DNA from: Deinococcales bacterium | Lineage (GTDB): Bacteria > Deinococcota > Deinococci > Deinococcales > JAAFIG01 | Assembly: GCA_013298595.1 (NCBI GenBank) | Contig: JAAFIG010000049.1 | Coordinates: 1-26,836, forward strand | Length of the DNA: 26,836 nucleotides | Direction of reading: 5' to 3' | Part shown: positions 53-26,836 of the stretch, in pieces | Layout: each line of letters starts with the position of its first letter | Numbering within the stretch: the first letter of the stretch is position 1 | Program-made: the position numbers and the translations under genes | Notes under the pieces: generated by a model | The model's input: the letters and a program-made list of their open reading frames with translations, nothing else | What the model was told of the DNA's origin: nothing | Databases searched by the model: none

Positions 53-1291
53 ATGTCTGAACCAACTTCCATCGCTGCCGAACGCAAATACGACCTCTAT
101 AGCCAAACCACCAAAGACAATCCATATCCTGTCTTTGCACAAATGCGCCGTGAGAACCCTGTCTATTCGCAACTTGGGCTTGATGGTAAAACCAAAATTT
201 GGTTTGTGACTCGGTACGAAGATGTTCAGTACATTCTTCATCACGATGAGCTTTTTATGCGTGATGCCAACAACGTCCTGCCTGCCGAAAAAACCTATCA
301 ACCCAATCCCCTCGAGGCGCTGATGTTTAATCATATGCTGAACAAAGATGGTGAAGATCATCGGCGTTTACGCGCCCTCGTTAGTCAGGCGTTCACTCCG
401 TCTCGAGTGCGTGATATGCGTCCTCGAGTTCAAGCCATTGCCGATGAGTTAATTGCAGCAGTCCAGTCCAAAGGGCAGATGGATTTGATTGCCGATTATG
501 CTTTTCAACTGCCCACGATTGTGATTTCCGAGATGCTTGGCATTCCTACCCAAGACCGCGAGCATTTTAAGCGGTGGACTGAAGCTACAATCGCCCCAGC
601 TTTAACCCCAGAAGCCCAAGCCAAGGCAGGAGCGTTAATCCAAGAATTTGCCGCATACTTGGGTGAATTGTTCGCTACAAGGCGTGTCGCGCCACAAAAC
701 GATTTGATTTCGGCACTCCTCCAAGCCGAGGAAGCTGGTAATCAACTCACCGAGTCTGAACTGTATAGCACTGTTGTTTTGCTGATTATTGCAGGGCATG
801 AAACCACGGTCAATCTGATTGGCAATTCGATTCTGGCACTGATGCGTTTCCCCGAAGCTCTTTTCACTTTGCAACAACACCCTGAGCAAATGGCTGGCGC
901 ATTGGATGAATTCCTACGGTATGAAAGCCCTGTAGAACGCTCTTTCTCGAGATGGGCAAACAAGGACACCGAACTCGGCGGGCAGCAGATCAAACAAGGC
1001 GATTTGGTCATGGGAATTCTTGGTGCAGCCAATCACGACCCCGAAAAATTCCCTAATCCAGAGGTGCTTGACCTCTCGAGGGATGCCAAACGCCAATTGG
1101 CGTTTGGACATGGAATGCACTTTTGTCTGGGGATGCCATTGGCGCGGCTCGAGGGTGAAATTGCGCTGAACAGTTTGTTGCAAAACCTACCGAATTTGCG
1201 CCTTGGGATGCTTGAGGAAGTACTGACTTGGCGGACTATTCCGATGTTTCGTGGGGTGAAACAAATTCCTGTGGTGTGGGACAATCCGTGA
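53..1291 (+). CDS. Cytochrome P450, bacterial class I type
   Basis: A 412-residue soluble haem-thiolate monooxygenase that would insert one oxygen atom from O2 into an organic substrate using electrons from a separate ferredoxin. The I-helix oxygen-binding motif AGHETT is at residues 247-252. The K-helix ExxR lies within DEFLRYESPVERSF. The haem loop FGHGMHFCLG has the axial cysteine at Cys358. The length is typical of stand-alone bacterial P450s and there is no membrane anchor. The start is fixed by AGGAGG at 41-46, six bases before the ATG. The TGA stop overlaps a GTG that would begin a small downstream ORF. No ferredoxin or reductase gene is visible here, so the redox partner must lie elsewhere. 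The family call is firm; the substrate cannot be read from the sequence. Confidence 0.96.
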   Translation: MSEPTSIAAERKYDLYSQTTKDNPYPVFAQMRRENPVYSQLGLDGKTKIWFVTRYEDVQYILHHDELFMRDANNVLPAEKTYQPNPLEALMFNHMLNKDGEDHRRLRALVSQAFTPSRVRDMRPRVQAIADELIAAVQSKGQMDLIADYAFQLPTIVISEMLGIPTQDREHFKRWTEATIAPALTPEAQAKAGALIQEFAAYLGELFATRRVAPQNDLISALLQAEEAGNQLTESELYSTVVLLIIAGHETTVNLIGNSILALMRFPEALFTLQQHPEQMAGALDEFLRYESPVERSFSRWANKDTELGGQQIKQGDLVMGILGAANHDPEKFPNPEVLDLSRDAKRQLAFGHGMHFCLGMPLARLEGEIALNSLLQNLPNLRLGMLEEVLTWRTIPMFRGVKQIPVVWDNP

Positions 1292-2243: not shown

Positions 2244-2312
2244 CTTGCTTGAAAATTAAAAGTCCAGATATACTGTGCTAAACGCGTCAAAACTCGAGGG
2301 TATTTTTTCATT

Positions 2313-2318
2313 TATAAT
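2313..2318 (+). promoter_or_regulatory. -10 box, leaderless promoter of the NTF2-like gene
   Basis: A perfect TATAAT ends six bases before the GTG at 2325, so transcription should start at or next to the initiation codon. No Shine-Dalgarno is present. This supports GTG 2325 as the true start. Confidence 0.65.
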
Positions 2319-2324
2319 AGCTGT

Positions 2325-2720: not shown

Positions 2721-2852
2721 GTTGTTTAGCATACTATTCAATTCTGCATTCTCTGAGCGGTGTTTAAAGTTCGGTTTTGAAACTACAGCCGCGAAACTAT
2801 CAATTCCGATTGGCTCCTTATAATTTCTCAAGCGGATTACCTAGAAATTTGT

Positions 2853-2858: not shown

Positions 2859-2864
2859 CGAGTC

Positions 2865-3521: not shown

Positions 3522-3527
3522 TGCTTG

Positions 3528-4112: not shown

Positions 4113-5165
4113 TCACTCGAGGTCATCACGCATTTTTTCCATTTTCTTGAGGGCTTCGCGGCGAGTTTCCATATCCATCTTGGCATAAATCGCGGAGGTG
4201 TTGACACTGGCATGACCAAGCAAATCCGCCACCACGTGCAAATCCTTGGTGGCTCGGTACAAATGCGTTCCAGCGGTGCGGCGCAGCGTGTGCAATCCCC
4301 ACATTTCCGCTGGTAATCCAGCTGCCACATAGTACCCTTTGGCAATAAACCTTGCGCCATGCGTGGTTAAACGCCGTCCATGGGAATCATTCCTCGAGAT
4401 ACTAATTAGTAAGGCTTTTTCATTCTCAGGAATTTCGCCCATAATCTCGAGACCTTTTCGTACCTCGAGCCAACGCTTTAATAAAAGAATTAATTCGTTG
4501 GCAATGGGTATGATGCGTTTTTTACCACCTTTACCGCTCTGCACTGTAATACGTTTTAAGCTTAGTTCTACGTCATTTACATCTAAACTAATAATTTCTT
4601 TGGCTCGTAACCCCCCAGAGCCACCCAATGCAATCAACAAACCATCTCGAGTACGACGTGGATCATCTACATCAAAGCGCTCGAGTGGAGCATTAACAAT
4701 TTCACGGTACAAAGCAGGGGAGAGCGCACTCTTTTTTAAATGAGCGGGTGTTGGATCCCTCGGGGCTTTGACTTCAGCCGCAGGGTTTTCAGTCGCTGCT
4801 TTTGCCCAAATTAAAGCGCGGTATAAGCAGCGAACACCATTTAAGTAAGTGATAATACTGCCTGGTTTGATCCCTTCAGATTGCAAAGTGACTAACCACA
4901 TTTCGATATCATCGGTATCTAACCGTGTCACCTCGAGTCGATGAGAATCCCGTCCGCAAAACTCGAGAAAACGCCTGACGGACGCAGCATAGAGGAGACG
5001 TGTATCGTTGGAGGTCAGGGATTTTCTGGTACTTTTTAACGTTAAGTAATGATTGAGTAACTCGAGTAGAGTTTCGAGGTCTTGGTCGTGAGCTGCACGT
5101 ACAGCTTCGCGTTTACGATTTTCTGGAGCTTGGAATTTACTGGATAAAACAAGCTCGAGGCTCAT
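4113..5165 (-). CDS. Tyrosine recombinase (XerC/XerD/phage integrase type)
   Basis: A 350-residue site-specific recombinase. The N-terminal SAM-like core-binding domain spans about residues 30-130 (LLNHYLTL ... LNGVRCLYRALIWA). The catalytic domain has Arg187 (GGLRAKEI), the beta-hairpin Lys (SGKGGKKRIIPI, about 212-216), His292-x2-Arg295 (LHTLRRTAGTHLY), His318 (LLGHAS) and the nucleophile Tyr327 (SAIYAKM). All expected catalytic residues are present. The ATG overlaps the stop of the upstream DUF6155-like gene as ATGA, so the two are translationally coupled. No excisionase, phage structural gene, tRNA or obvious attachment repeat flanks it, so a Xer-type or small-element role is as likely as prophage integration. 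The length is slightly above the usual 300 for XerC/D because of an N-terminal extension. Confidence 0.93.
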   Translation of the reverse strand: MSLELVLSSKFQAPENRKREAVRAAHDQDLETLLELLNHYLTLKSTRKSLTSNDTRLLYAASVRRFLEFCGRDSHRLEVTRLDTDDIEMWLVTLQSEGIKPGSIITYLNGVRCLYRALIWAKAATENPAAEVKAPRDPTPAHLKKSALSPALYREIVNAPLERFDVDDPRRTRDGLLIALGGSGGLRAKEIISLDVNDVELSLKRITVQSGKGGKKRIIPIANELILLLKRWLEVRKGLEIMGEIPENEKALLISISRNDSHGRRLTTHGARFIAKGYYVAAGLPAEMWGLHTLRRTAGTHLYRATKDLHVVADLLGHASVNTSAIYAKMDMETRREALKKMEKMRDDLE

Positions 5166-5682: not shown

Positions 5683-6120
5683 CTAGTCATTATTGCTAGT
5701 ATTTGGCTGTGTAGGATTTAAACCAAGTGCTTTGATACCGGCAATAGCACATAATTCATCGTTTTCACCAGCATCACCTGAAATTCCAACTGCTCCAATC
5801 AAATTCTGTCCATCAAAAATAAGTACCCCGCCTGGCGACGGAATGATTCGCCCTTGGCTCGACGCTGTTAAGGCGGTAATAAAAGTTGGGTATTTTTCGG
5901 CACGCTCATCGATTTCCCTACTATCAAATCCCATGCCTAGCGCTCCCCATGCTTTACCAAAAGCTATTTCAAATCGCAAATAACTTGACCTATCCTCGCG
6001 TTTGAAAGCCACCAAATGACCGCCTGAATCCAATACTGCTACTGATAATGGAGCTAGATTTTGTTTTCGCCCTTCGGTAATAGCTGCATCTATGATTATA
6101 TTAGCTTGACTTAATTGCAT
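5683..6120 (-). CDS. GlcG/HbpS family protein
   Basis: A 145-residue protein with the full GlcG/HbpS signature. It has the opening helix (QANIIIDAAITEGRKQNLAPLSVAVLD), the strand GGHLVAFKRED, the segment AFGKAWGALGMG and the glycine-rich end PSPGGVLIFDGQNLIGAVGISG. Members include the haem-binding HbpS of actinomycetes and GlcG, encoded with glycolate-oxidase genes; many are of unknown function. No signal peptide is seen, so it is probably cytoplasmic. GAGGT at about 6124-6128 (minus strand) is a Shine-Dalgarno close to the ATG, and a sigma-70-type promoter lies upstream. It is unusual here in having no CTCGAG palindrome. The family call is firm; the ligand is unknown. Confidence 0.88.
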   Translation of the reverse strand: MQLSQANIIIDAAITEGRKQNLAPLSVAVLDSGGHLVAFKREDRSSYLRFEIAFGKAWGALGMGFDSREIDERAEKYPTFITALTASSQGRIIPSPGGVLIFDGQNLIGAVGISGDAGENDELCAIAGIKALGLNPTQPNTSNND

Positions 6121-6155
6121 AGTTACCTCGTGTGAATTTGGCTGATATATCTCCG

Positions 6156-6183
6156 ATTATAGCCATAAAGATTTGCTCAACAA
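6156..6183 (-). promoter_or_regulatory. Sigma-70-type promoter of the GlcG-like gene
   Basis: On the minus strand TTGTTG (6178-6183), a 16-base spacer and a perfect TATAAT (6156-6161) precede a leader of about 30 bases with a GAGGT Shine-Dalgarno. Unlike several neighbours, this gene has a normal leader. Confidence 0.6.
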
Positions 6184-6313
6184 AAGCGGTTGGGTATGCT
6201 AATTCAAATCACACGATAAATTTTGCATTTTTAAATTATAAGGTGAAAACAGCAAACACATTCAGATCATTTGACTTTGCTTGAGAAACGGCTCGAAAAC
6301 TACTTTTCGGCTT

Positions 6314-6319
6314 TATAAT
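6314..6319 (+). promoter_or_regulatory. -10 box, leaderless promoter of the NamZ-like gene
   Basis: A perfect TATAAT ends seven bases before ATG 6327. There is no Shine-Dalgarno, which supports that ATG as the start. Confidence 0.6.
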
Positions 6320-6326
6320 CAATCGC

Positions 6327-7409
6327 ATGACTGGACTCGAGCGACTCATTGCCAACCCCAAACCACTCGGACGTGCTGCACTTTATACCAACCACACAGG
6401 TGTCACTCGAGATTTCGTATCTGCGGCAGTGGCATTAACTCGAGCTGGTGTAAAACTCGAGAGGTTATTTGCCCCTGAACATGGCATTGATGGCAGTGGC
6501 AAAGAAGGCGAAGCGCCTGAAGTTGCTAAAGACCCCGCCAGTGGCTTACCCGTCGTAACACTTTACGATAGGACAGCATCAGAGGTTGTGGTTGCGCTCG
6601 AAGGTTTAGATTGTGTGTTGTTTGATATTCAAAGTGTTGGTGCTCGGTTTTACACGTATCTTGCCAGTTTGCAGCGTTTGCTCGAGGCGTGCAAAACTGC
6701 TCAAGTCAAATTAATTGTTTTAGATCGTCCTAATCCAAATGGTCATCGGCTCGAGGGCGCTTTGTTGCGTCCAGAATTCGCTTCATTTGTTGGTGTGGTA
6801 GGTGTGCCACTGCGTTTTGCTTTGACCTATGGCGAGATGGCTCGAGTTTTTGCTCAAGGGTGGAATGGTTTAGAGGTGATTGAATGTGAGATTGCACAAA
6901 CGCTGCCTTGGGTTGCACCCAGTCCAAACATACCAAATCTCGAGACAGTGGCTTTGTACCCCGCCATGTGCCTTGTTGAAGGGCTAAATTGGTCCGAGGG
7001 ACGTGGTACAGCTCTCCCCTTTCAAGTTTTTGGATTTCCTGATTTAGATGCTCATGGGCTGGTCTCGAGGTTGAACTCCTTAGCCTTGCCTAATGTGCAT
7101 TTTCGAGCGATGTATTTCACACCAACGTATCAAAAAAATCTTGGTCAACTCTGTGCAGGCGCACAAATTCATGTGCTTAAACCACTCGAGGATGTACTGC
7201 CAATTGGGTTAAGTATTCTTGCAGTGGCTCGAGAGTTTGGGGCAACAATGAAAATAGCTTGGTTACAGAAATTGCTTGGGGTTGAACTCGAGGAAGCTGA
7301 TTTTACTGTTGAAAATGTGAGGAATCTTGCCCATGTCTGGAAGCTAGAAGCGATGGCTTGGTTCGAGCAAAATAACACAGCTATTTTGTATCCTCGAGAT
7401 TTTTTATAG
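6327..7409 (+). CDS. NamZ-like exo-beta-N-acetylmuramidase (DUF1343)
   Basis: A 360-residue DUF1343 protein. Family motifs appear in order: LFAPEHGI (47-54), FDIQSVGARFYTY (99-111), LDRPNP (132-137), SPNIP (199-203) and EGLNWSEGRGT (218-228). The characterised member NamZ of Bacillus releases terminal N-acetylmuramic acid from peptidoglycan fragments, feeding cell-wall recycling. The usual Asp of DIQDVG is Ser here (DIQSVG). There is no signal peptide, so this version should act in the cytoplasm on imported muropeptides. The next gene, 69 bases on, encodes a peptide-type solute-binding protein, which fits capture and degradation of wall fragments. The gene carries 13 CTCGAG copies in about 1.1 kb. 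Confidence 0.9.
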   Translation: MTGLERLIANPKPLGRAALYTNHTGVTRDFVSAAVALTRAGVKLERLFAPEHGIDGSGKEGEAPEVAKDPASGLPVVTLYDRTASEVVVALEGLDCVLFDIQSVGARFYTYLASLQRLLEACKTAQVKLIVLDRPNPNGHRLEGALLRPEFASFVGVVGVPLRFALTYGEMARVFAQGWNGLEVIECEIAQTLPWVAPSPNIPNLETVALYPAMCLVEGLNWSEGRGTALPFQVFGFPDLDAHGLVSRLNSLALPNVHFRAMYFTPTYQKNLGQLCAGAQIHVLKPLEDVLPIGLSILAVAREFGATMKIAWLQKLLGVELEEADFTVENVRNLAHVWKLEAMAWFEQNNTAILYPRDFL

Positions 7410-7478
7410 GGCTTGTCTTGAATTTTTGGTTTGAACACGTCAGAATGCTCGAGTCAGACAATTCAATGGAGGTATTTG

Positions 7479-9218
7479 ATGCACAAAAGTATTCGTTTCG
7501 CATTACTGGCGGGTTCGTTAGCGGCAGTGGCTGTCGCCCAAAACGCAGGGCAACCAACTGTACCGACTATCATGTTTCAGCAAGAGGGGAAAAAAGGTGG
7601 GGTCTTTACCCAAGCAATTACCACAGCGCCTGTGACTTTTAATTATTACAATGCCATTGATGGGGCGACTCAGACAGTTTTGAACAATGTTTTTGATCGT
7701 TTGTTAACGTTGAATCCGTATAGCAACAAAATTTATCCTAGCCTTGTAGACTCATGGAAATTTTCTGATGACGGCTTGGTTCTGACCATGAAATTGCGTG
7801 ATATTAAATGGTCAGATGGTACACCGTTTACCTCGGATGATGTGATTTTTACAGTTGACAGTCTTGCCAATAACGCAGATTTACGTGCCAATTTTACAGC
7901 TCAGTTACGAATTGGTGGTAAATCCCTGAAATTTGAACGCATCGATGATCGTAACTTCAAAATCATTATGCCAGTGCAGTATGGCGCGATTCTGAATGTT
8001 CTAACCTTCTTCCCAATCATGCCAAAGCATAAACTCGAGCAGTTTGACCCTAAAGGCAAACCCGCTGATTTTGCTCGGGCTTGGGCAACTGATTCTAAAT
8101 TATCCGAAATTGTTGGTACTGGACCTTTTGCCCTTTCGAGTTACGTAGCAAATCAAAAAGTCACTTTGACCCGCAACCCTAATTCATGGCGTAAAGACCC
8201 GTCTGATAACCAATTGCCGTATACCGATAAACTCGAGTACCTAGTCATTACATCGCCTGAAGCGCAATTAGCGCAATTAAAAGCAGGCACGCTTGATAGT
8301 TTAACCATCACAGGAGCACAATTTCCTGATATGAAAGCTGCCGAAGTTCGTGATGGTAAAGTTCGGGTTTTGCGCGGCATTGGTTTAAACAGCCCACCTT
8401 GGCATTGGTCTTTTAATATGGACTCGAGCAATCCCGATCTTGCTAAGGTTTTTCGTGATTTACGATTCCGTCAAGCTATGACTGTGGCATTAAATCGTGA
8501 TCGTATCATTGAAAGCGTTTTTAATGGCTTAGCCAGTCTACCAGGGCATGGTGTTGCTCCAACCTCAGATTGGTACTTTAATACGAAGCAATACTTCCCA
8601 ACGTGGAATCTTAAAGAAGCTGATACCATTTTGGATAGCATGGGTTTAAAAGATACCGATGGCGATGGTGTACGTAACATCGGTACAGGCAAACAACTCG
8701 AGTTTGCACTGACCCACGCAGCAGACTCGAGTGTTGCACCTGCCATGGCAGCTGTGATTCAAAACGATTTAAAGCAAATTGGTATTCGAGTTAATTTACG
8801 TGGTGTGGCAGGTAACACTGTACTAGGCACTGGGCAAGCAGGTAATTTCGATAGTATTTTGTTAACCTTTGGCGATCAAGCCGATCCGCAATTGCGTAAG
8901 GATATCTGGCAACCAGGGCGGGGGTTGAATTATTGGCGCAAAAGCTTACAACCTGTTGGATCGGCGGCTATTAATACCAAGACCATGTTTCCTTACGAGA
9001 AACGTATTTTTCAAATTTTTGAAGAAGCCGAAAAACTTGGCGATCAAAACCGCCGAAAAGCCTTATACGACGAGTGGCAAGTGCTTTTTGCTAAGCATAT
9101 GCCCGTTATTCTGATTACCAAACCAGATGTTTTAGCAGTCGCAAATAACCGTATTGGCAACTTCTATGTCCGTGATAATCGTGTCCTTTGGAGCACCGCC
9201 ACCGTTTATGAAAAATAA
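7479..9218 (+). CDS. Peptide/oligosaccharide ABC transporter solute-binding protein (SBP_bac_5)
   Basis: A 579-residue exported binding protein of the peptide/nickel (family 5) type. ATG 7479 is chosen because GGAGG at 7468-7472 is six bases upstream and the product begins with a signal peptide ending near AVAVAQ; an earlier in-frame ATG at 7431 lacks both. Landmarks are SLVDSWKFSDDGLVLTMKLR, IKWSDGTPFTSDDV, GTGPFALSSYVANQKVTL, NPNSWR and FRDLRFRQAMTVALNRDRI. A calcium-loop-like DTDGDGVRN segment is inserted in lobe 2. No permease or ATPase genes adjoin it, so it is an orphan binding protein. Its pairing with the NamZ-like gene suggests peptidoglycan fragments as a possible ligand, but this is inference. 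Confidence 0.93.
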   Translation: MHKSIRFALLAGSLAAVAVAQNAGQPTVPTIMFQQEGKKGGVFTQAITTAPVTFNYYNAIDGATQTVLNNVFDRLLTLNPYSNKIYPSLVDSWKFSDDGLVLTMKLRDIKWSDGTPFTSDDVIFTVDSLANNADLRANFTAQLRIGGKSLKFERIDDRNFKIIMPVQYGAILNVLTFFPIMPKHKLEQFDPKGKPADFARAWATDSKLSEIVGTGPFALSSYVANQKVTLTRNPNSWRKDPSDNQLPYTDKLEYLVITSPEAQLAQLKAGTLDSLTITGAQFPDMKAAEVRDGKVRVLRGIGLNSPPWHWSFNMDSSNPDLAKVFRDLRFRQAMTVALNRDRIIESVFNGLASLPGHGVAPTSDWYFNTKQYFPTWNLKEADTILDSMGLKDTDGDGVRNIGTGKQLEFALTHAADSSVAPAMAAVIQNDLKQIGIRVNLRGVAGNTVLGTGQAGNFDSILLTFGDQADPQLRKDIWQPGRGLNYWRKSLQPVGSAAINTKTMFPYEKRIFQIFEEAEKLGDQNRRKALYDEWQVLFAKHMPVILITKPDVLAVANNRIGNFYVRDNRVLWSTATVYEK

Positions 9219-9263
9219 GCTGGCTCGAGCCTCTTGCACACTGTACAGGTTTTTGCGTTAGAC

Positions 9264-9269
9264 TATAGT
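9264..9269 (+). promoter_or_regulatory. Possible -10 of the IPT lipoprotein gene
   Basis: TATAGT lies about 40 bases before ATG 9309, leaving room for the GGAGGT Shine-Dalgarno at 9298-9303. No good -35 is found. Confidence 0.35.
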
Positions 9270-9308
9270 GGTAACAACCATGTACCACATACCCTTTGGA
9301 GGTCTTAA

Positions 9309-9665
9309 ATGAAATTATTACTGATTGGATTTGTCGCTTTGCTCGGATTCGTGTCTTGTGCGCCGGATGCTGGTCGTCCAACATTGCGTCCTGTACTGAT
9401 TAAGCTGTCCGAACCTGCCAAGGTTGGTGAAACAGTCACCCTTCAAGGGCGTTACTTGGGAAGTAAAGACAATGGTGCTGTTATCTTTGGTGCAGATACT
9501 GTTGGTAATGGTGGTGCAACAGCTACTTCGGCTGATGTTGTCTCATGGAATGCTTCTGAAATTCAAGTACGTGTACCAGCTAACGCCAAAACAGGTGGCA
9601 ACTTTGTCTTTGTTTCCGTTGGTGGTGTCCTGAGTAACGGCATGGCTTACAGCATCACTCGTTAA
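9309..9665 (+). CDS. Small IPT/TIG-domain lipoprotein
   Basis: A 118-residue secreted lipoprotein. A signal peptide ends in GFVSC with lipidated Cys17. The rest is a single immunoglobulin-like IPT/TIG fold: strands LRPVLIKLS, GETVTLQGRYLG, GAVIFG, ADVVSWNASEIQVRVPANAKTGG, NFVFVSVGGVLSNGMAYSI. The SW-N-x-x-x-I-x-V-x-V-P run is the IPT hallmark. Such domains mediate binding at the cell surface; no partner can be named. The start is set by GGAGGT at 9298-9303, five bases before ATG. It is a single-gene unit, closed by the terminator at 9676-9715. The longer S8 protease encoded at 13692-15731 carries similar beta-rich modules. Confidence 0.85.
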   Translation: MKLLLIGFVALLGFVSCAPDAGRPTLRPVLIKLSEPAKVGETVTLQGRYLGSKDNGAVIFGADTVGNGGATATSADVVSWNASEIQVRVPANAKTGGNFVFVSVGGVLSNGMAYSITR

Positions 9666-9742: not shown

Positions 9743-11065
9743 ATGAAGTATCAAACCATCAAAGGCACTTTTGATAGACTCCCCGCAGACGCAGCTAAGT
9801 GGCGTTTGATTGAAGAAACCGCCAGAGTTGTACTCGAGCGGTTTGGCGCTGGTGAAATTCATACCCCTATTTTTGAAGACGTGGGTGTCTTCTCTAAAGC
9901 CGCTGGAGACTCGAGTGATATTGTTCGTAAGGAAATGTATGCCTTTACCGACCGAGGTGGACGTAACCTCTGCTTACGCCCTGAAGCCACTGCTGGTATG
10001 GTTCGGGCTTACCTCGAGCATGGTTTTTCTAGTAAACCCACACCTGTTAAATTCTGGACCTTTGAACCAATGTTTCGTGGTGAAAAACCACAAAAAGGGC
10101 GTGAACGGCAGTTTCACCAAGTGGGTTATGAAATCCTCGGATTATCCGACCCTCTTGCCGATGCTGAAATCATTGATGCTGGTGTGCAACTCCTTAGTCA
10201 ATTAGGGATTGAAGAGTATGTGATTCACCTTGGATCGGTAGGCGACCCAGAAGATCGGGCTGCATACAATCAATACCTCCGAGATACCCTCTCCCCTGCT
10301 TTTGCAAGATTAAGTGCCGAAAGTAAAGAACGCCTCGAGTTAAACCCAATGCGGATATTAGATAGTAAAATCGAATCCGACCAAGCTTTATTAAAAGAAT
10401 TAGCCGTCAAACCCATGCTCGAGTTCTTAGGTTCAGAAGCTCGAGATCACTTCGAGGCAGTGCAAAAATGCTTAACTGCTTGGGAAATCCCATTTGTAGT
10501 GGATTCAAGTATTGTGCGTGGTTTAGATTATTATCGTCGGACAGCCTTTGAATTTATTCATAACTCCCCTGCATTAGCGGGCTGTAGTACCATTTTAGCC
10601 GGTGGGCGTTACGATGGACTTGCCGAAATTCTTGGCGGGCAACACACCCCAGGGGTTGGTTGGGGTTGCGGAGCAGAACGGCTTATCCTTGCGATAGAAG
10701 CCGAAAAAATTGATGTACCAGAACTCGAGAAACCACTGGTTTATGTTATCCCACTCGATGAAGAAAGCATTTTATATGCCCATAATGTTGCTCGTGAAGC
10801 TCGTCGAGTAGCGCAATCCTTAGCCGCTTACAAAGTCAAAGGAATGGGGAAAGCCCTCTCCGATGCCGAAAAATTCGGTGCCAGATTCGCTGTTATTATT
10901 GGCAGTAACGAACGCGAAACAAGTATCCTCAACATCCGAGAACTTGCCACTCGAGAACAATTTACGGTTAGCCTCGAAGAATTCGGCGAATGGTTATTTG
11001 AACAAGACTTTGGCTCAGGATTAGAAGCTAATATCCGTATGCTGGAGGCACAACTCGAGGCATAA
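9743..11065 (+). CDS. hisS: Histidyl-tRNA synthetase
   Basis: A 440-residue class II synthetase that charges tRNA-His with histidine in the cytoplasm. It shows RPEATAGMVRAY (79-90), motif 2 FEPMFRGEKPQKGRERQFHQ (107-126), the histidine-specific RGLDYYRRTAFEF (259-271) and motif 3 GVGWGCGAERL (304-313). The C-terminal anticodon-binding domain starts near residue 330 (KPLVYVIPL). The length is slightly above the usual 420 or so. The start is supported by a TANNNT box six bases upstream and by the conserved opening of the protein. The TAA stop overlaps the ATG of a small broken gene (TAATG). Nine CTCGAG sites lie in the gene: six read Leu-Glu, one Ser-Ser and two x-Arg-x. Confidence 0.97.
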   Translation: MKYQTIKGTFDRLPADAAKWRLIEETARVVLERFGAGEIHTPIFEDVGVFSKAAGDSSDIVRKEMYAFTDRGGRNLCLRPEATAGMVRAYLEHGFSSKPTPVKFWTFEPMFRGEKPQKGRERQFHQVGYEILGLSDPLADAEIIDAGVQLLSQLGIEEYVIHLGSVGDPEDRAAYNQYLRDTLSPAFARLSAESKERLELNPMRILDSKIESDQALLKELAVKPMLEFLGSEARDHFEAVQKCLTAWEIPFVVDSSIVRGLDYYRRTAFEFIHNSPALAGCSTILAGGRYDGLAEILGGQHTPGVGWGCGAERLILAIEAEKIDVPELEKPLVYVIPLDEESILYAHNVAREARRVAQSLAAYKVKGMGKALSDAEKFGARFAVIIGSNERETSILNIRELATREQFTVSLEEFGEWLFEQDFGSGLEANIRMLEAQLEA

Positions 11066-17033: not shown

Positions 17034-17062
17034 TTGACAAGTATAAATGGATGCTTCAAAGT
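17034..17062 (+). promoter_or_regulatory. Promoter of the toxin-antitoxin operon
   Basis: A perfect TTGACA (17034-17039), a 17-base spacer and CAAAGT (17057-17062) end six bases before ATG 17069, the same spacing as the leaderless promoters here. TATAAA at 17042-17047 is an alternative -10 without a good -35. Either reading disfavours the upstream ATG at 17051. Confidence 0.45.
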
Positions 17063-17068
17063 ATCCAA

Positions 17069-17464
17069 ATGGCAATCATTGCATACCCGTTCTACCCAAA
17101 TAAAATACATGCTCATAACCCACCTCTTATAGAAGACCTAATCGAACTCGAAGCCACTCAACACCAACTATGCGTAAGTCAAATCATTAACATGATCGCT
17201 GACCTAAAAAACAACGGAACAAATAGCCGATACCTCAAAAAAATGCGCGGCGCATTCCTCGAACTCAAAACTGCCTCCCGAGGCGGAGACAAAGGTGGTG
17301 CAAGAGTCTACTTATTCAAAGCAGCCAAAGAAACTTTTTACCTTTGCCGAGCCGAATGCAAAAGTGGAAACGAAGCCGATGCCCTCCTCCTATACAGCAC
17401 CCTTGAAATCCTAGAAGCGTTCCAAAACAAACAACCCTTATTCCCAAACCGAGGTGAACAATGA
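17069..17464 (+). CDS. RelE/HigB-like toxin of a type II toxin-antitoxin pair
   Basis: A 131-residue protein (137 if ATG 17051 is used). An N-terminal helical part is followed by the RelE/HigB-like core: YLKKMRGAFLELKTAS, GGARVYLFKAAKETFYLCRAECKSGN, then a C-terminal helix (LLLYSTLEILEAFQ). The LxGxFxELK...xRVxxF order is that of HigB/phage Gp49-like toxins, which cut mRNA at the ribosome. The HGF..K pattern typical of such toxins is altered here to CRAECKSGN. Its stop overlaps the antitoxin ATG. Toxin-before-antitoxin order and an XRE partner fit the HigBA arrangement. The identification rests on pattern and context and is moderately sure. Confidence 0.7.
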   Translation: MAIIAYPFYPNKIHAHNPPLIEDLIELEATQHQLCVSQIINMIADLKNNGTNSRYLKKMRGAFLELKTASRGGDKGGARVYLFKAAKETFYLCRAECKSGNEADALLLYSTLEILEAFQNKQPLFPNRGEQ

Positions 17465-18273: not shown

Positions 18274-18690
18274 TCAAGAATTATTATGATTTAATAGGTC
18301 AAATTTCCGTATGTTAGCAACAGGTAGACTGTACATATTACCTTTTTTCATTTTGACAAAAAGTTTAGTGAAACCTATTCCAACTCGAGTAACATATTGT
18401 GTACCAAAACTAAAATTGGTGGTTATGAAAATATTTTCCACTTGATCTATTGGAATTGAAATTATTCTAAATGAAACAACAAAAAGTACAATTTTATCAT
18501 CAAAGATTGAATAAGAATAAGCGTACTTCTGAAACAATCCATTGGCAATAAAAAATACTATCATTCCCAATAAAAACGAAAATATAGCGTGTAAACCCCA
18601 ATTATATAACAAGTAAATAAGAAAGAAAGACAAACCTCCATACAAATAGAAGCAAAAACTATCGACTATTAAACCAATAATTACTGACAT
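18274..18690 (-). CDS. Small membrane protein paired with the RHS gene; possible immunity protein
   Basis: A 138-residue protein. Two hydrophobic segments (about 4-24 and 32-52) are followed by a soluble tail (YSIFDDKIVLFVVSFRIISIPIDQVENIFI ... KLFVKMKKGNMYSLPVANIRKFDLL) resembling bacterial PH-like domains attached to membrane helices. The ATG overlaps the RHS stop codon (TAATG), so it is translationally coupled to the giant gene. The gene is visibly AT-rich and has one CTCGAG. In polymorphic toxin loci the gene directly after an RHS toxin is usually its immunity protein, and membrane immunity proteins are common; that role is inferred only from position. It might equally be an assembly or anchoring factor. 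Confidence 0.7.
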   Translation of the reverse strand: MSVIIGLIVDSFCFYLYGGLSFFLIYLLYNWGLHAIFSFLLGMIVFFIANGLFQKYAYSYSIFDDKIVLFVVSFRIISIPIDQVENIFITTNFSFGTQYVTRVGIGFTKLFVKMKKGNMYSLPVANIRKFDLLNHNNS

Positions 18691-21600
18691 TACCTACACC
18701 CTGAAGCACCTGGAACAAAGGTTAAAGAGCCAGATACCCCTGCCGCTTTTTCTAATGTAAGCCCGATTCCCCAATAGCCTTCATCTCCAATTTCAGCATT
18801 AAAACTTCCAATCGCTGGTATCGGAACACTCAGCGCTATTTTATCACCAGAATAACCAGAACGATTTGAACTAAGTACTGACGCACCACTAAGAGAACCA
18901 GAAAGTCCAAGCGCACCGCCTATACCAGGAGTAACTTGTGGCGGAGCAAAATTAATTCCAAACTTCCCAGTGGTTTCAGTTACGTTAACTGTCGCAATAG
19001 ATGTAAGTACTTTTCCCCCAAGCAAGCGACCACCCTCCGCTGATGGTCCATTTAGTGAAACTGAAAATGTACTTCCATCCGCTCCTCGTGTTGCAGCGTC
19101 TCGTCCACGGATACAAGCTTGATGAATGTCATAAAAGGCTTGTGTTGAATTTGCATTAATGGTCGCCATTGTACCCTGACTTAACTGACCTCCAATACCA
19201 TCACCTGTAATTTTATGATTGATATACCCATTTTTGCCAAACATCCAATTCATGAACTGATTCCTGTCTCCGTTGTTGGATAATTTAACATTTCTTGTCG
19301 CCATCGGCACATTCGCACATGGATTAGACGAAAAAGCAGTTCCAGCACCGATAGGACAACCAGGACCCATATATGCTGCTCGTCCACCAAAGCCGTGATT
19401 TTTGAAGGCATCATCACAAGTCTTTAATGCACCACCACTTGCTCTAGCTCGAATTCCACATAAATCAGCTAGTTCTTTTCGCCATTCAGGAATTGTAATT
19501 TCATTTTTTGCAAGACCCATAGCTAACCCAGTATAAGCCTGAATCCTATCTCTTGGAGTAAATTCAGCAGCTTGAAAGTATCCATCAAGTGCATTTAAAT
19601 CAGCTTTAGCTTGGATTCTTGCTTCAGCATCAGACAACCCTTGTTGTTTATAGCGATCTTCCAATTCAGATTTAGCTTCATCTCTAGCGCACTGTTCAAG
19701 TACTCCCATCAGAGCATCAGCTTCTTCTCTTGATATAGCATCTTTTGCCTTTAATGATTTGGCAACTGCTTTAAAGCATTGTGTGCCTGCCGCATTTGTA
19801 CCAGTACTAAACGGTTTTACATCATTACCACTAGTGTTAGGTTTAGCACTCGAGACTGGCGGCTTAACACTACTTGCACTTGTACTCGGCACATTACTCG
19901 AGGATGGACTGGTCACACTACTGGCACTTGGTGTACTACTCGAGGGTGTACTCGCACTTGCATTTGGACTGGTTACACTCGAGGCTGCGGTACTTGGAAC
20001 ATTTGGTGCACTGTTCGGACTGGTCACACTACTGGCTGTGGTTGTCACTCCAACTGGTGCGGCTTGACTTGGTGCTTGCAGTGTTGAAGTACTCGAAGTG
20101 GTTGGTGCATTACTTGGTTGACTCGAGGTAGTAGTGGTTGTTGTTCCGACGCTTGGACTCGAGACAGCTTGACTTTGCGGTTGACTCGAGCTAGTGGTTG
20201 TACCTGTGGCTGGGCTGGTAATGCCTTGAGTTTGCGCCTGACTCGAGCTTGCAGGTTGAGCAGTTCCACTCGAGGTAGTTGATGCACTCGAGGTTGGGGT
20301 TGTCACAGAACTCGCTGTGCCACTAGGCGCTTGACCAGAAGCACTAGGACTCGTCACACTCGAGGCACTCGTAATTCCCGTTTGAGAAGCCACAGAAGCC
20401 GTAGGAGCCTCGAGCGGAGCACCACCAGCAGGAGCTTTAGGAGCCTCGAGCGGTGTGAAAATATCCCATTGCGGGTTATTTAATTCTTCTTCACGAACAC
20501 TATCTGCCAGACTAAAGGTTTCGTCTTGATCTCGAAACACCATACCTGGGGTACTGTCATACCACCAGGCAGTCAGGTGATTCTTAACTTGATCTCCATA
20601 ACTTCTGTTGACTGCGTGAATTAATTGTGGTTGCCCATCTACAAAAATTGTGGATTGTTGCTTGGTAAAAATACCCACACTACTATTCCCAAGCGAAGGT
20701 TTGGAATCCCATGCCTCGTACAATCGGGTATTGCTACTTAACGAGAGATTACCTTCTGGATCGTATACAAAGTTTTGTGAATTTGTCATATAGCCAGCTG
20801 GGTATGGATTTGGTTGCGCGAAACCTGAAGCGTTTTGATACCAGCTTTTTCTAATTTCAACAGCTTGTTCGTCGGCATTAAAACGCTGTGCTCCGTTGAA
20901 ATCATGGTTGGTTCGTAAACCGTTACTAGAAAGACTATATGTATACCATCCAATATTGGAGCCGAAACGACCTTCAGTCACACCATTTGAAGCCGTATAT
21001 ATATTACTTTCTGCTTTAAGAACGTTGTTATTATTGTATTGCCAAGTTCTATCTGTAGTACCATTGTATGGAAGTGTTGCACCAATTCGATTACCAGCAT
21101 CATCATATGTAAATGTTTCCGTGAATAACTGTGTAAATGCACCACTTCCAGTAGAGTCTTTATAAGTTATGGCACTTGTAACTTCGCCATTACCATTAAA
21201 TATATTGACAACTTTGTTGACCGCATTGGTAGTTATTTCTTTTTTACTACTTTCTCCTAGTAGTCCACCAATTGTTACTTTACGAGTGGAATTATATTTA
21301 CCATTGCTAAGAGTTGTGGTGGTTACACCAAGACCTGGAAAGAAAATACTGGTAGTCACTGCAACTCCTGTACCATCGCCATTACCGTCTACTTGCGAAA
21401 CCAGTCTGCCTCGAGAATCATAAGAATATGTTTGTGAACTAATCAAATTAGCGGCAGTGTCTGTGTTTGTGTTGTACACATGAACACTTTTCTTTTGTCC
21501 GCTCTTGTAATAGTTATACTTCGAGGTACGAGTTGAACTGGTGTTAAGATTAACTGTGCCTGCATTGTATGTTGTTGTCGAAGTACTTTCCTTGGTTGTA

Positions 21601-24600
21601 ACAAAATCAAGACGGTCGGCATCGTTATACTCGAATCCAGTATATGATTGCGGAGTTATCATTGATGTTGCAGGTGGTCTCAGTTTTTCGGCTCCAGTTC
21701 CTTTTGGTAAACTTGAAGCGACTGTAAATTGTGTACCTGGGTTACGGAAACTTTCCACATAGGTTTTTAAGTTTGTTTCTCGAGAGATTTGCTTATTGGT
21801 TTTTGAATAAGTATACGTGAATATATCTGTTTTTGGTGTATTCGGATCAATGGATAAACCAAGTGTAACATCAGTGCTTTGCTTGTAACTCTCGAGTAAG
21901 TTGCCATTTGCATCGTATTTCCAGAATTGAGCATAATTTGGACTACCATTCGTAGAGCTATCTGCTCGAATGAATTTAGCGTAAATGCTCGGGTCACCCT
22001 TATGGAATCTCGAGTACATTAAACCAAGTCCGTTAAAGTTCTGGTACTGAGTTTTTTCTTTTACTAAAACATTTGCACTGTTACGTCCACTACTGACAAT
22101 TTTTGTGCGTTTGCCCGCTGCACTGAGGATGTATTCTTGTAAATTTCCTTTTGTTACAGTACTTGAAGCTTCTTGGGTATCTCCATGTACAAGTGTATTG
22201 GTAAAGTTACCACTTACCGCACCATCTTCGTACCCATAATTACTTTCACGAACTTTTTCACCATCTAATCGGTACGCGTACCACTTGTAATTGTCGACAC
22301 TGGTTTTGTACGGGCGACTTTCTTTTTGTACTTTACCCATGCTGCTATAACTGTAATCTGTTACCAAGCCACGTTCTGTTTTCTTTGTTAAGTTGCCTGC
22401 AATATCGTACTCGTATGTATTTTGAATAGCTGCTACTGTTGGAAAAGCAACATCATCAACTGTTCCAGCACGTTTAGGTTTGATTTCACGTACAAGTCGG
22501 TTAAACGCATCGTACGTGTAATTTGTAATGAACCCATCAGCATCTTTTAAGTCTTTGACATTACCTCGAGCATCATATGTTTGCGTAATAGTATTACCAT
22601 CTGGCAGTGTTTGTTTTGTTAAACGCCCAGCCCAGTCGTACTCGAGAATGGTATGCCCAGATCCTATTTGAGCAGCAACATTGTCATTCACGGCTTGGCT
22701 CATCCCAGTTGGGTATTTTTTATTGTTGCTATACCCAAAGGATCTCACCGCAACATAATTCGCTAGGTTTCCATCTGCTGGGGTACTGGGGTTATTATCA
22801 GGTTCCCATACACTACCTAGTGTTCCATCAGGATAGTAACTGTTGACCTTGGTTGTGATACCTCGAGCGTCTTTTTCAGCAGCAACATTCCCAAGAATAT
22901 CGTAGCGTTTATAAGATGTGTTACCTCGAGCATCTGTGAAACTGGTTTGTCTGCCCATTGCATCGTATTCGTAGCGAGAGGTGACGTTTCTGTTAACATC
23001 TGCTCCTTCAAAATTTGCTAAACAGTCAGCTTCGTACCAATAGCAAACTTGTTGTTTTTTGCTTGTCAGATTATCCACGCCATCATATGTAAATTGAGTG
23101 TAATTAGAATCTGGATCGTAAGTAGAAATGATTCGGTCGAATCCATCGTAAGTACTAATATTTGTTGCGATTTGAGCACCACTTGGCATACTCGTTATGT
23201 CAGCAGCGCCTGTTTGTATGGCTGCTGGTGTCATAGCTGTTGTCGATTGTAATAATTTTCGTTCAGTTGTGCGACGATCTAAACCATCGTAAACGTACTC
23301 GGAGTATGGTCTACGAGTATCTGCATATCCTGATGTACCAACGGAACGCAACACTGGCTCGAGTTTCTTGGTTAAATTACCATTAGAATCGTAGACAAGG
23401 TACGTGCTTTGATCTTTATCTCCTGATGTAATGCTGTTAAGTGCCCCATTTTGAATTCTGATTGGTCGGTCAAAATTATCATATGTCATGATGGTGGCAT
23501 AGCCTAATGCAACGTTATTTAAAAATCCGTTGGCATTAGAATCTCGAGTATCTTTGGTGACTCTGCCTAATGAATCTACTTCTCGGTAATGACAATCTGT
23601 TGTTCCTAAATAACTTGTGCCACCTGCGTTGCATTCGGCATCTTTTGTTCCACTTGGGTGGTAGTTTATGACATCGTAATTTCCGTCTTGCTTGGTTCGT
23701 TGAATAACACGATTCAACGTATCATATCTATACGTCGTAGTATTTTCATCATCAATTTTAGTTTGTATGACACGTCCAGCAGCATCGTACAGAATATCGG
23801 TTTTTTCTCGGATTGTATCTATTGTCCAAGAATTATTTGTATTGATACCTTTAGTAATTTTATTAACTCGTCCTGTACTGGTATCGTAATCATATAGCAC
23901 CAAGTTATTGATGCTTCCTATTTTTGTGCTTTTTAGCTCGCCTGTAGCGTAATAATCCCATTCTTGTTTACTTGCTTCTCGAGGATGTTCGTAAACACGT
24001 TCAAAGGTTTTTTGTCCAAAGCCATTATAAACACTTTCGGTAATTCGGTCTTTGCGGTATTCATTACCTACAGCTGTTGCATTGGCATCTCGTAATTCGG
24101 TAGCTAATGCACCTTTTTCGTTTTGCAAACTCACTTTCCCTAACCAGTCGTAGGTGAATTCTGTGGTTTTTTCTGTTACATTACCAACACTAACCACTGC
24201 TTTTTGCACATAATCTTGGTATTGAATTGCTGTGTTTGGGGTACGGATATTGACGCTTATGCCAGTGGGCGATAATGCAGGAGCAGGTAAAGCTGCCGCG
24301 CTTCCTGTTGCGTATGTATATGTTGTTTTTGTGGTTGGTAAGTTGCTTCCACTGCGCGTAGATTCTTTTAATCTTCCTTGAGTATCTATTGTTGTATCCA
24401 GTGTGTACCGCAGCAAGGATCCCATATGCCGTTGCGATGAAATTGTATTGATTGCTGTAAAACTTTGACCTGCCGTGGTGATTGTATGATTCGTATATGA
24501 TCGCAGCCATTTAACATCGGAGTATGTGTAAGCAACTTCACCTCGAGTCTGCGTACCATTTGTACCCAATTGTTTTTCTTCGGTAACTCGGTTATCTAAA

Positions 24601-26836
24601 TCGTATGTCATGGTTTGAGCACGTTCAAATCCAGCAGTTGGTGTGTATGTTGAATTCAGGACCGAACCATCAGCACCCATAGGTCGAGTTGCTAAGTTAG
24701 TTTCAATTCTCGAGACCATACCAGCAGCACTGTATTGGTAGTCTGTGATTTTACCTGCTGGGTCTACGATGCGTTTTGTACTGCCGTTCGGGTAGTATTC
24801 GTAGTTCCACATATCCATATTATTGACTTGTTTACTTGCTCGGATTAACCAACTACTAGCTGTCCACGGATTGTAGTTACGCACTCGTTTATGCAGTAAT
24901 GCACCAGTGTTAAAATCGTAATAATAAAATTCTTGCTTATGATCATTACCAGATATATCTTGGGTCATGGTGACTTCACGTGTGCCTGGCATAACACTAT
25001 TACCACCATCGTTGTAAGCGTACGTTATGTCTGGTTCTATTTTCGTACCTGCACCTGGTGAATCATTGTTATTCGTAATAACATTGGTTAGTCTACCTGT
25101 TGGGTCATACCCATAATGTGTGACTTTCCAGCCTTGTGTACCGAGCATTAGGCGTTTAATTCGGGTGACTAAAAGTCTATTTGCTTTTTGTCCATAATCA
25201 AATTCGGTAGTACGGGTAGATTGACCACCACGTCCATCGTATGTGAGATACGTTATCTTTGTTATAACTTGTTGATTGCCAAACAGACCATATGTGTAAG
25301 TCGTTGCTATTGACCATGTATTATTAACATCGTTTTCATTTTGCACAAATTGGTACACACCATTTAAAGTTCCATCTGTACTCCAATAATACCGATGAAC
25401 CCGACCCCACTCATCTTTAACTTTACTCAGTAAACCAGTAATTGGTTGGCTCGAACCCGTTGGTGTCACACTGGTATACGTCAATTCTGTTTTAGGTGAA
25501 CTAGCCAGTTCCCCTTCAGGATCGCTGTTCACAGCTCCTCGGTATTGCTGATGCAGTGTTTGCGTGTAATCAGCGAATTCACTATCTTCACCACTAGTAC
25601 CAAAAAATGTCACTCGAGTGCCATCACTTGTGTAGTAATGAGCAATGCTGTTATTCCCAGCTCGAGTGCGTAGTACAACGTATTCACTGCTGTACTGAGT
25701 TCCGCCTTTTGGTGCGAGGGTGTAAATGGTGGTGTCAGCCAGTGCATTACCTGTTGTTGTATCTTTGTATCGCGTTATCCAACTTGGTTTATCAGTGAAC
25801 CACGCTGCATTAGCAGTTGTGACTTTGTTGAAAGTGGTGGTGCTACCATCTCCGCTTGAGAGTGTGATAGTTGGAGCTGGTTCAAAGATTTGTTTTACAG
25901 AGATATCTTTGATTTCCCAAGATGGGTTGTTTGCAGTAAGTTCAAAGATTTCAAAGACTCGTCCGTGTGTACTACCTGCTGGAACTGTGAAATCCTGAGT
26001 TAAGTTCTGCCATGTTGTAGTGAGTGTTCGATAACCAACATTGTAATCACTTAATCCAAAAGTGACTGGGAGTGTGCCATTTCGAGTTCGAGCGTTAATG
26101 GAGGCTCGGTATTTTCCTGGTGCTAAGTTTTCAACTCGCATAATTCCACTGTGATTTTGTGCTCCGTAAGGTGCAAGTGCAGGATTATCAGCACTTAGTA
26201 ATCTCGAGAAGGTTTCTGTGCTTGGTCTAATACAGTACATACCCCAATTGAGTGTGTTCTGATCTGTGATTAAATTTGTTCCAGGAACTCCATTTTCAAT
26301 TTTTTGTACTATTAAGTTAGTTACTTCCCAACTTGGATTACTCGCTGTGTTTTCGCGTAATTGCATTAATCGTTTTTGATAACCAGGGTTACTTAGTAAA
26401 ACGTGTCCTGCGGGTATTATAAAATCTGATGTAAATGATTGCCATTGCGTATTCAAATTTGCATTAGCAGTGAAGTAATCATTGACTCCATAACTCACAG
26501 CAAGGTTCGCATCGGCGCGTCCATCAAAAGTGACTCGGTATGTTCCAGCCGTGATATTTGTGAGTCCATCTCGGATAACACCACTGATATTCTGATTTGG
26601 ACTCGCACACCCATTGTCGGTACTTGCAAATCGATTTATTGGAAGTACAGCTGGTTTCGTCTGGTAATTACTCCAGTAACTCGAGGCTGCATTCTGCTCA
26701 GTTATCTTATTGGTACTGAGTTCATTACCCCAGTTCTTGGTGAAACCATTTAAGCGTAGCCTAGATTTTAATTGCCATTGACCACCACCAATGCTATTAG
26801 CGGTTTCATCATTACTGCTTAGGATATTGTTTCTAG
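18690..26836 (-). CDS. Giant RHS/YD-repeat protein, 5' end beyond the window
   Basis: The frame is open from the right edge to TAA 18690-18692, over 2,700 residues. The GTG at 26498 is not the start: another 112 codons read upstream without a stop, with matching domain sequence (ITAGTYRVTFDGRA). From the N-terminus there are at least two carbohydrate-binding-like beta modules (YRVTFDGRA...WQSFTSDF; YRASINAR...WQNLTQDF), each ending in NPSWE. A long YD-repeat shell (about 25480 to 20700) follows, with units such as YDTLNRVIQRTKQDGN, YDAMGRQTSFTDARGN and YDWAGRLTKQTLPDGN. Next comes a Ser/Thr/Pro linker and a 370-residue tip. YD shells encapsulate toxins or form surface filaments. The usual DPxG core motif before the tip is not seen. 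Whether the tip is a toxin is unknown. Confidence 0.93.
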   Translation of the reverse strand, partial: RNNILSSNDETANSIGGGQWQLKSRLRLNGFTKNWGNELSTNKITEQNAASSYWSNYQTKPAVLPINRFASTDNGCASPNQNISGVIRDGLTNITAGTYRVTFDGRADANLAVSYGVNDYFTANANLNTQWQSFTSDFIIPAGHVLLSNPGYQKRLMQLRENTASNPSWEVTNLIVQKIENGVPGTNLITDQNTLNWGMYCIRPSTETFSRLLSADNPALAPYGAQNHSGIMRVENLAPGKYRASINARTRNGTLPVTFGLSDYNVGYRTLTTTWQNLTQDFTVPAGSTHGRVFEIFELTANNPSWEIKDISVKQIFEPAPTITLSSGDGSTTTFNKVTTANAAWFTDKPSWITRYKDTTTGNALADTTIYTLAPKGGTQYSSEYVVLRTRAGNNSIAHYYTSDGTRVTFFGTSGEDSEFADYTQTLHQQYRGAVNSDPEGELASSPKTELTYTSVTPTGSSQPITGLLSKVKDEWGRVHRYYWSTDGTLNGVYQFVQNENDVNNTWSIATTYTYGLFGNQQVITKITYLTYDGRGGQSTRTTEFDYGQKANRLLVTRIKRLMLGTQGWKVTHYGYDPTGRLTNVITNNNDSPGAGTKIEPDITYAYNDGGNSVMPGTREVTMTQDISGNDHKQEFYYYDFNTGALLHKRVRNYNPWTASSWLIRASKQVNNMDMWNYEYYPNGSTKRIVDPAGKITDYQYSAAGMVSRIETNLATRPMGADGSVLNSTYTPTAGFERAQTMTYDLDNRVTEEKQLGTNGTQTRGEVAYTYSDVKWLRSYTNHTITTAGQSFTAINTISSQRHMGSLLRYTLDTTIDTQGRLKESTRSGSNLPTTKTTYTYATGSAAALPAPALSPTGISVNIRTPNTAIQYQDYVQKAVVSVGNVTEKTTEFTYDWLGKVSLQNEKGALATELRDANATAVGNEYRKDRITESVYNGFGQKTFERVYEHPREASKQEWDYYATGELKSTKIGSINNLVLYDYDTSTGRVNKITKGINTNNSWTIDTIREKTDILYDAAGRVIQTKIDDENTTTYRYDTLNRVIQRTKQDGNYDVINYHPSGTKDAECNAGGTSYLGTTDCHYREVDSLGRVTKDTRDSNANGFLNNVALGYATIMTYDNFDRPIRIQNGALNSITSGDKDQSTYLVYDSNGNLTKKLEPVLRSVGTSGYADTRRPYSEYVYDGLDRRTTERKLLQSTTAMTPAAIQTGAADITSMPSGAQIATNISTYDGFDRIISTYDPDSNYTQFTYDGVDNLTSKKQQVCYWYEADCLANFEGADVNRNVTSRYEYDAMGRQTSFTDARGNTSYKRYDILGNVAAEKDARGITTKVNSYYPDGTLGSVWEPDNNPSTPADGNLANYVAVRSFGYSNNKKYPTGMSQAVNDNVAAQIGSGHTILEYDWAGRLTKQTLPDGNTITQTYDARGNVKDLKDADGFITNYTYDAFNRLVREIKPKRAGTVDDVAFPTVAAIQNTYEYDIAGNLTKKTERGLVTDYSYSSMGKVQKESRPYKTSVDNYKWYAYRLDGEKVRESNYGYEDGAVSGNFTNTLVHGDTQEASSTVTKGNLQEYILSAAGKRTKIVSSGRNSANVLVKEKTQYQNFNGLGLMYSRFHKGDPSIYAKFIRADSSTNGSPNYAQFWKYDANGNLLESYKQSTDVTLGLSIDPNTPKTDIFTYTYSKTNKQISRETNLKTYVESFRNPGTQFTVASSLPKGTGAEKLRPPATSMITPQSYTGFEYNDADRLDFVTTKESTSTTTYNAGTVNLNTSSTRTSKYNYYKSGQKKSVHVYNTNTDTAANLISSQTYSYDSRGRLVSQVDGNGDGTGVAVTTSIFFPGLGVTTTTLSNGKYNSTRKVTIGGLLGESSKKEITTNAVNKVVNIFNGNGEVTSAITYKDSTGSGAFTQLFTETFTYDDAGNRIGATLPYNGTTDRTWQYNNNNVLKAESNIYTASNGVTEGRFGSNIGWYTYSLSSNGLRTNHDFNGAQRFNADEQAVEIRKSWYQNASGFAQPNPYPAGYMTNSQNFVYDPEGNLSLSSNTRLYEAWDSKPSLGNSSVGIFTKQQSTIFVDGQPQLIHAVNRSYGDQVKNHLTAWWYDSTPGMVFRDQDETFSLADSVREEELNNPQWDIFTPLEAPKAPAGGAPLEAPTASVASQTGITSASSVTSPSASGQAPSGTASSVTTPTSSASTTSSGTAQPASSSQAQTQGITSPATGTTTSSSQPQSQAVSSPSVGTTTTTTSSQPSNAPTTSSTSTLQAPSQAAPVGVTTTASSVTSPNSAPNVPSTAASSVTSPNASASTPSSSTPSASSVTSPSSSNVPSTSASSVKPPVSSAKPNTSGNDVKPFSTGTNAAGTQCFKAVAKSLKAKDAISREEADALMGVLEQCARDEAKSELEDRYKQQGLSDAEARIQAKADLNALDGYFQAAEFTPRDRIQAYTGLAMGLAKNEITIPEWRKELADLCGIRARASGGALKTCDDAFKNHGFGGRAAYMGPGCPIGAGTAFSSNPCANVPMATRNVKLSNNGDRNQFMNWMFGKNGYINHKITGDGIGGQLSQGTMATINANSTQAFYDIHQACIRGRDAATRGADGSTFSVSLNGPSAEGGRLLGGKVLTSIATVNVTETTGKFGINFAPPQVTPGIGGALGLSGSLSGASVLSSNRSGYSGDKIALSVPIPAIGSFNAEIGDEGYWGIGLTLEKAAGVSGSLTFVPGASGCR
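18693..19830 (-). other. Variable C-terminal tip of the RHS protein
   Basis: About 375 residues after the linker. The first half is helical and charged (CFKAVAKSLKAKDAISREEADALMGVLEQ, YKQQGLSDAEARIQAKADLNALDGYF) with several cysteines. The second half is Gly/Ser-rich and beta-like (SLNGPSAEGGRLLGG, GGALGLSGSLSGAS, GYWGIGLTLEKAAG), ending in GASGCR. No known nuclease, deaminase or protease motif was recognised. The stretch has no CTCGAG sites, in contrast to the linker beside it, so it may have been exchanged horizontally. Confidence 0.5.
19831..20456 (-). repeat. Ser/Thr/Pro-rich linker with repeated SSVTSP units
   Basis: About 210 low-complexity residues contain at least six variants of ASSVTSP (also ASSVTTP, ASSVKPP) among Gln-, Ala- and Pro-rich runs. 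Thirteen CTCGAG copies occur in about 600 bases, mostly read as Ser-Ser or in Leu-Glu-Ala-Pro. It separates the YD shell from the C-terminal tip and is likely an extended, possibly glycosylated, flexible stalk. Confidence 0.75.

Follow-up and report, generated by a model that had tools for sequence, protein, structure and literature searches.

Our analysis supports a highly-iterated-palindrome phenomenon outside the Cyanobacteria, in which the hexamer CTCGAG recurs with a frequency that is both sharper and denser than that of the cyanobacterial palindrome HIP1 (GCGATCGC). The excess is a DNA-level effect, and we tentatively regard CTCGAG as the counterpart of HIP1, with single sites made or kept by a DNA-level process, whose likeliest agent would be an exact-recognition enzyme that biases repair or fixation. 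The window analyzed here is one entire contig (26.8 kb) from a draft genome of 4.58 Mb (G000), and the host is an uncultivated Deinococcota bacterium related to Meiothermus. We place it outside the Cyanobacteria because its histidyl-tRNA synthetase gene, hisS, is nearest to those of Deinococcales MAGs.

Within the window, CTCGAG occurs exactly 130 times, the copies spanning positions 311 to 26685 (one per ~206 bp), in agreement with the roughly 130 copies over this span given in the original prediction. Base composition predicts 4.8 copies and a first-order Markov model predicts 2.7, such that the twentyfold excess estimated earlier was conservative (27-fold and 47-fold, respectively), and the runner-up palindromic hexamer reaches 16 copies. 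Across the whole of G000, we count 27,159 copies (5.9/kb) versus 15 of the reversed control GAGCTC. Hexamer statistics were computed on ~827 kb of the genome sampled as stretches, where the first-order observed/expected ratio (O/E) of CTCGAG is 56 and that of the next palindromic hexamer, GATATC, is 1.5; it is this outlier status that marks a highly iterated palindrome in Elhai's wide sense. All of the 24 hexamers ranked next by O/E overlap CTCGAG. The original prediction had named two outcomes that would speak against it, a genome-wide count near expectation and an equal excess of hexamers of the same composition. The first is far from what we observe, and the same-composition and control palindromes are depleted in the sample (O/E of 0.01 for GAGCTC, 0.10 for GTCGAC, 0.19 for CGATCG, and 0.10 for CTGCAG). 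Further palindromes are close to absent from the same 827 kb: the tetramers GGCC and CCGG are extremely avoided (O/E of 0.01 and 0.11), AGGCCT, CCGCGG, and GGGCCC have 0 copies, and TTCGAA (2/261), CTTAAG (3/202), and GAGCTC are nearly missing. Such extreme avoidance of many palindromes suggests prolonged exposure to many restriction systems.

The sites are spread over the genes of the window, with 52, 35, and 28 copies in the three frames of the listed open reading frames (ORFs) and 15 outside them, and the claim that every codon phase is used thus holds. In hisS (9743-11065, plus strand), 9 copies occupy all three frames, and the phase examples reported for this gene were recovered (VLER at 9833, a DSS context at 9910, and EARD at 10440). 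The densest gene, encoding a NamZ-type exo-beta-N-acetylmuramidase (6327-7409, plus strand), carries 13 copies in 1.08 kb, and a large RHS/YD-repeat-like ORF of 2602 aa (18690-26498, minus strand) carries 29 (3.7/kb). Two listed ORFs are free of CTCGAG (5683-6120, minus strand, and 17051-17464). A gene of the tyrosine recombinase/phage integrase family (4113-5165, minus strand) has 10 copies; at 9.5/kb, it shows by that measure no recent acquisition from outside. A CTCGAG-poor island (L156:8041-12184) encodes a Prok-E2_A/ThiF/JAB fusion protein and its neighbors, and is likely a recently acquired defence operon. Two restriction-modification-like gene pairs of G000 (L150:8650-10493 and L151:8312-10733), one of which includes a NotI-family endonuclease, both already carry CTCGAG.

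The DNA-level nature of the excess is apparent from how it is partitioned, with genes in the G000 analyses called by ORF length only. Compared to a synonymous-codon shuffle, CTCGAG exceeds expectation 11.7-, 11.0-, and 22.0-fold in the three frames, and in intergenic DNA, 184 copies are observed versus 5.2 expected (~35-fold). Among positions where the protein sequence would permit the hexamer, 65, 63, and 36% by frame (frame 0 being 65%) are actually CTCGAG, whereas nine control hexamers fill 0-12%. These numbers bear on the possibility that CTCGAG is a by-product of codon usage or of a peptide preference for Leu-Glu. The commonest frame is indeed frame 0 (CTC GAG), and codon usage explains part of the count in GC-rich relatives, yet frames 1 and 2 are equally or more enriched, intergenic DNA shares the excess, and Leu-Glu not written as CTCGAG falls to 0.81 of expectation. 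A codon or dipeptide origin is thereby refuted for G000 and keeps practically no probability, upholding the earlier statement that the copies cannot be put down to codon bias or to a single peptide motif. The direction of influence is instead from DNA to protein: the Leu-Glu dipeptide has an O/E of 2.34 in G000 and 2.2-2.5 in other high-CTCGAG genomes, compared with 1.0 in Thermus and G004, and since the remainder is 0.81, this 2.3-fold excess is due solely to CTCGAG, an amino-acid cost of the hexamer. At Leu-Glu, CTCGAG is used with a frequency of ~0.65 throughout the gene except for the eight codons at either end, where it drops to ~0.55. Expressed as log odds per site, the bias in G000 is 4.8 in coding versus ~3.6 in intergenic DNA, while in G002 and G003 the two agree within ~0.6.

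CTCGAG sites are conserved to a degree that amino-acid constraint does not nearly account for. In 31 orthologue pairs between G000 and its relative G001 (78% amino-acid identity, with divergence near synonymous saturation), 143 of 222 sites are common to both genomes, whereas a shifted control gives 2.5. Within sites, synonymous codons are identical at a rate of 0.79, compared with 0.35 for the same codons elsewhere; the comparison of orthologous sites suggested in the original prediction thus shows conservation in excess of amino-acid constraint. For positions compatible in both genomes, the probability of a site in one given a site in the other is 0.71-0.86 versus 0.24-0.47; part of this sharing arises because most compatible positions are filled in both genomes, near the ceiling. 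The nearest hisS orthologues (82% identity in L009 and 69% in L010) both come from MAGs labeled "Deinococcales bacterium" with 7.2-7.4 CTCGAG/kb, and L009 shares 9 of 13 sites when two window genes are pooled.

The recognition underlying the excess is exact, as one-mismatch variants lie at background (1158 sites versus 1091 expected) and form no near-match halo. Flanks are almost random, with a mild preference for G just 5' of the site and no wider motif, and gaps between sites are near geometric with no preferred spacing. The copies are thus dispersed over coding and non-coding DNA as individual hexamers rather than as parts of a larger repeat, and decay of an expanded repeat is ruled out by the random flanks and the absent one-mismatch excess. 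These features also weigh on a reading in which CTCGAG is the site of an abundant DNA-binding or chromosome-organizing protein and each copy confers a small, independent fitness benefit. Strong site conservation and the occurrence of copies within as well as between genes would fit such a role, and log odds of 3-5 per site are attainable by weak selection. On the other hand, proteins of this kind usually tolerate mismatches, a wider motif, preferred spacing, and saturation are all absent, and very many weakly selected, amino-acid-changing sites would be costly. We therefore consider a binding protein improbable, though it is the strongest competitor to an exact-recognition enzyme.

At short range, the sites are not independent. 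Within genes, pairs less than ~24 bp apart are rarer than in a status-shuffle null (ratios of 0.30, 0.42, and 0.68, with z down to -9), and the same deficit is found in relatives, most clearly below 18 bp, whereas ten non-palindromic control words give no consistent deficit, albeit with small counts. The minimum lies at 9-14 bp, corresponding to hairpin loops of 3-8 nt, and exclusion is weaker at 7-8 bp. Pairs at 6 bp are entirely absent, a spacing that also creates GAGCTC. Because a palindrome present twice can fold into a hairpin, the position of this minimum looks like hairpin avoidance, and a protein footprint is less likely as its cause. A terminator-like hairpin whose arms are both CTCGAG copies was observed at L149:12590-12625, and 27 similar CTCGAG-loop-CTCGAG-TTTT structures were counted over both strands of the G000 sample.

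From ~41 bp upward, pair counts fit independence (ratio ~1), and the probability of a site at a compatible position changes little between 72 and 288 bp from the nearest CTCGAG. Dense regions thus do not disfavor sites, and the spacing data argue against saturating roles such as kilobase-range mismatch repair or chromosome spacing. This result is relevant to methylation-directed mismatch repair of the type proposed by Elhai, in which an orphan CTCGAG methyltransferase would mark new sites as template, such that mutations toward the site become fixed. In Cyanobacteria, a putative methyltransferase was found wherever such an oligomer is highly over-represented, including a matching one for the alternate palindromes (PMC4390886), and exact palindromic recognition suits a methyltransferase. 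Under this model, however, density should level off at about one site per kb, while we observe an unsaturated 6-9/kb.

The search for a responsible enzyme covered six Pfam methyltransferase families (PF07669, PF00145, PF01555, PF02384, PF02086, and PF05063, the last of which matched nowhere, controls included) and the XhoI endonuclease, and it yielded no candidate driver. Six methyltransferases were recovered in G000 by these families, and among the loci compared none of these has an orthologue in G002 or G003 (cutoff of at least 35% identity over 60% of the length, applied to a subset of family hits in drafts that are 91-94% complete, with G016 at 58%). Only the m5C methyltransferase G000:C15 has close orthologues, and these lie in just three other genomes, including G001 and G012, with one containing an internal stop. 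Its resemblance to an enzyme annotated beside an HpaII-family endonuclease, together with the CCGG avoidance noted above, indicates that it is probably CCGG-specific; its presence in few genomes, its HpaII-type likeness, and the HNH nuclease gene adjoining its relative in G012 led us to reject it as the driver. The G000 methyltransferases C11 and C34 were also rejected, as each adjoins a likely restriction gene (of the NotI family for C34 and without a Pfam match for C11). The original prediction had listed a methyltransferase among candidate causes; G000 does encode such enzymes, but among the hits recovered, none is common to the high-CTCGAG genomes, with the proviso that unrelated enzymes could share one specificity.

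The XhoI/PaeR7I restriction-modification system recognizes exactly CTCGAG, but it is absent from the high-CTCGAG genomes: the XhoI endonuclease (PF04555) was not found in G000-G003, G012, or G016, and XhoI-type enzymes are rejected as the explanation there. Four genomes of the phylum carry XhoI endonuclease genes, namely G018:C125 (L432), G042:C417 (L433), G048:C8 (L434), and G009:C1 (L435), the last of which contains stop codons. The flanking methyltransferases fall into two unrelated classes, beta (L433/L434) and gamma (L435), and neither has a close relative that we could find in the high-CTCGAG genomes. Relatives of the gamma-class enzyme (48-57% identity) are present in G015:C11 (L091), G063:C3 (L439), and G064:C147 (L438), where XhoI has no match, and the L439 copy adjoins sigma/anti-sigma-like genes. 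That Meiothermus-type genomes of moderate excess carry this relative in the apparent absence of XhoI speaks for the methylation model; the lack of a shared or close XhoI-type methyltransferase in the high genomes and the probable CCGG specificity of the G000 m5C enzyme speak against it. Overall, we judge methylation-directed repair unlikely, and less probable than a binding protein.

Within Deinococcota, densities of ~6-9 CTCGAG/kb are observed in all four genomes of the host family and in one genus of its sister family, while the other families mostly have 1-3.5/kb, and Thermus has ~0.8/kb. Relative to codon usage, the excess is 2.5-3.9-fold in Meiothermus-type genomes, 9-fold in two low-GC genomes of family f3, and 3-fold in one sister-family genus; it is absent in Thermus (0.7) and G004 (0.4). 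Stretches of two Deinococcus plasmids show no excess of CTCGAG. In one genus, the XhoI carriers G018, G042, and G048 have 0.7-1.0 CTCGAG/kb versus 1.65-1.97 in their XhoI-free sisters (raw densities, with kinship ignored), as expected if restriction opposes CTCGAG accumulation. When viral contigs were scanned with a three-site CTCGAG pattern, the densest among the matches listed were mostly GC-rich. The predicted palindrome outside the Cyanobacteria is supported both genome-wide and family-wide.

Like HIP1, CTCGAG is an exact GC-rich palindrome with an extreme excess in genes and spacers and a phylum-wide distribution with lineage-specific losses. It differs in having six bases and an unrelated sequence (the core of HIP1, CGATCG, is depleted in G000), in its non-cyanobacterial host, in its density (5,700-9,400 per Mb versus 300-2,700 per Mb), in altering the Leu-Glu content of proteins, and in that no matching methyltransferase was found in high-CTCGAG genomes. 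The alternate palindromes of single cyanobacteria (GGCGCC, GCsGC, rCCGGy, TCGATCGA, and GGGATCCC) demonstrate that other sequences can take the role of HIP1, although all are cyanobacterial, CTCGAG is not among them, and a putative matching methyltransferase is reported for them. A precedent for a repair enzyme altering oligomer frequencies is the Vsr/Dcm-linked excess of CCWGG in Escherichia coli, which is far below that of CTCGAG and confined to T:G mismatches; for CTCGAG, by contrast, the one-mismatch variants taken together lie near background.

DNA uptake sequences form the other class of oligomers known to be amplified by drive, and Thermaceae and Deinococcus are naturally transformable, which would allow competence machinery that prefers CTCGAG to spread it by transformation. 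The uptake sequences of Neisseriaceae and Pasteurellaceae resemble CTCGAG in being over-represented oligomers for which molecular drive is suspected, but they are longer, non-palindromic, and present about once per kb. They also carry a near-match halo, as does Synechocystis HIP1 in its ten-base form, with the one-mismatch halo of the Actinobacillus pleuropneumoniae sequence reaching ~10-fold (PMC1939737), whereas CTCGAG has none. At one site per 170 bp, discrimination by uptake is moreover hardly possible, and we assign this origin only a very slight chance.

Biased repair and weak per-site selection cannot be told apart on the basis of fixed differences. We nonetheless infer an enzymatic driver that acts through biased repair or fixation and not through selection at each site, ranking exact-recognition repair bias first and weak, independent per-site selection second. 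A DNA-level process of population-scaled strength ~3-5 (log odds) would favor the exact hexamer, which would be gained and retained site by site as far as the protein or spacer allows. The likeliest driver would be molecular drive by an enzyme that processes DNA and recognizes its target as exactly as a restriction enzyme does, such that mismatches are preferentially repaired or fixed in favor of an intact CTCGAG. The stronger proposition, that an enzyme exerts a phylum-level, methylation-independent drive for one exact palindrome, filling most protein-permitted positions and raising Leu-Glu more than twofold, is in our estimation possible but doubtful.

What purpose HIP1 serves has been an open question since 1995, and the explanations put forward have centered on Cyanobacteria and the methyltransferases of that phylum. 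An independent and denser case in Deinococcota, where strong, moderate, lost, and restriction-opposed lineages occur together, makes this a comparative and testable question, and CTCGAG limits the admissible models through its exact recognition, its lack of kilobase-scale saturation, the absence of a shared methyltransferase among those found, and its effect on protein sequence. It also serves as a warning that a DNA-level process can shape protein composition. If true, a methylation-independent drive would represent a hitherto undescribed type of genome-wide sequence drive.
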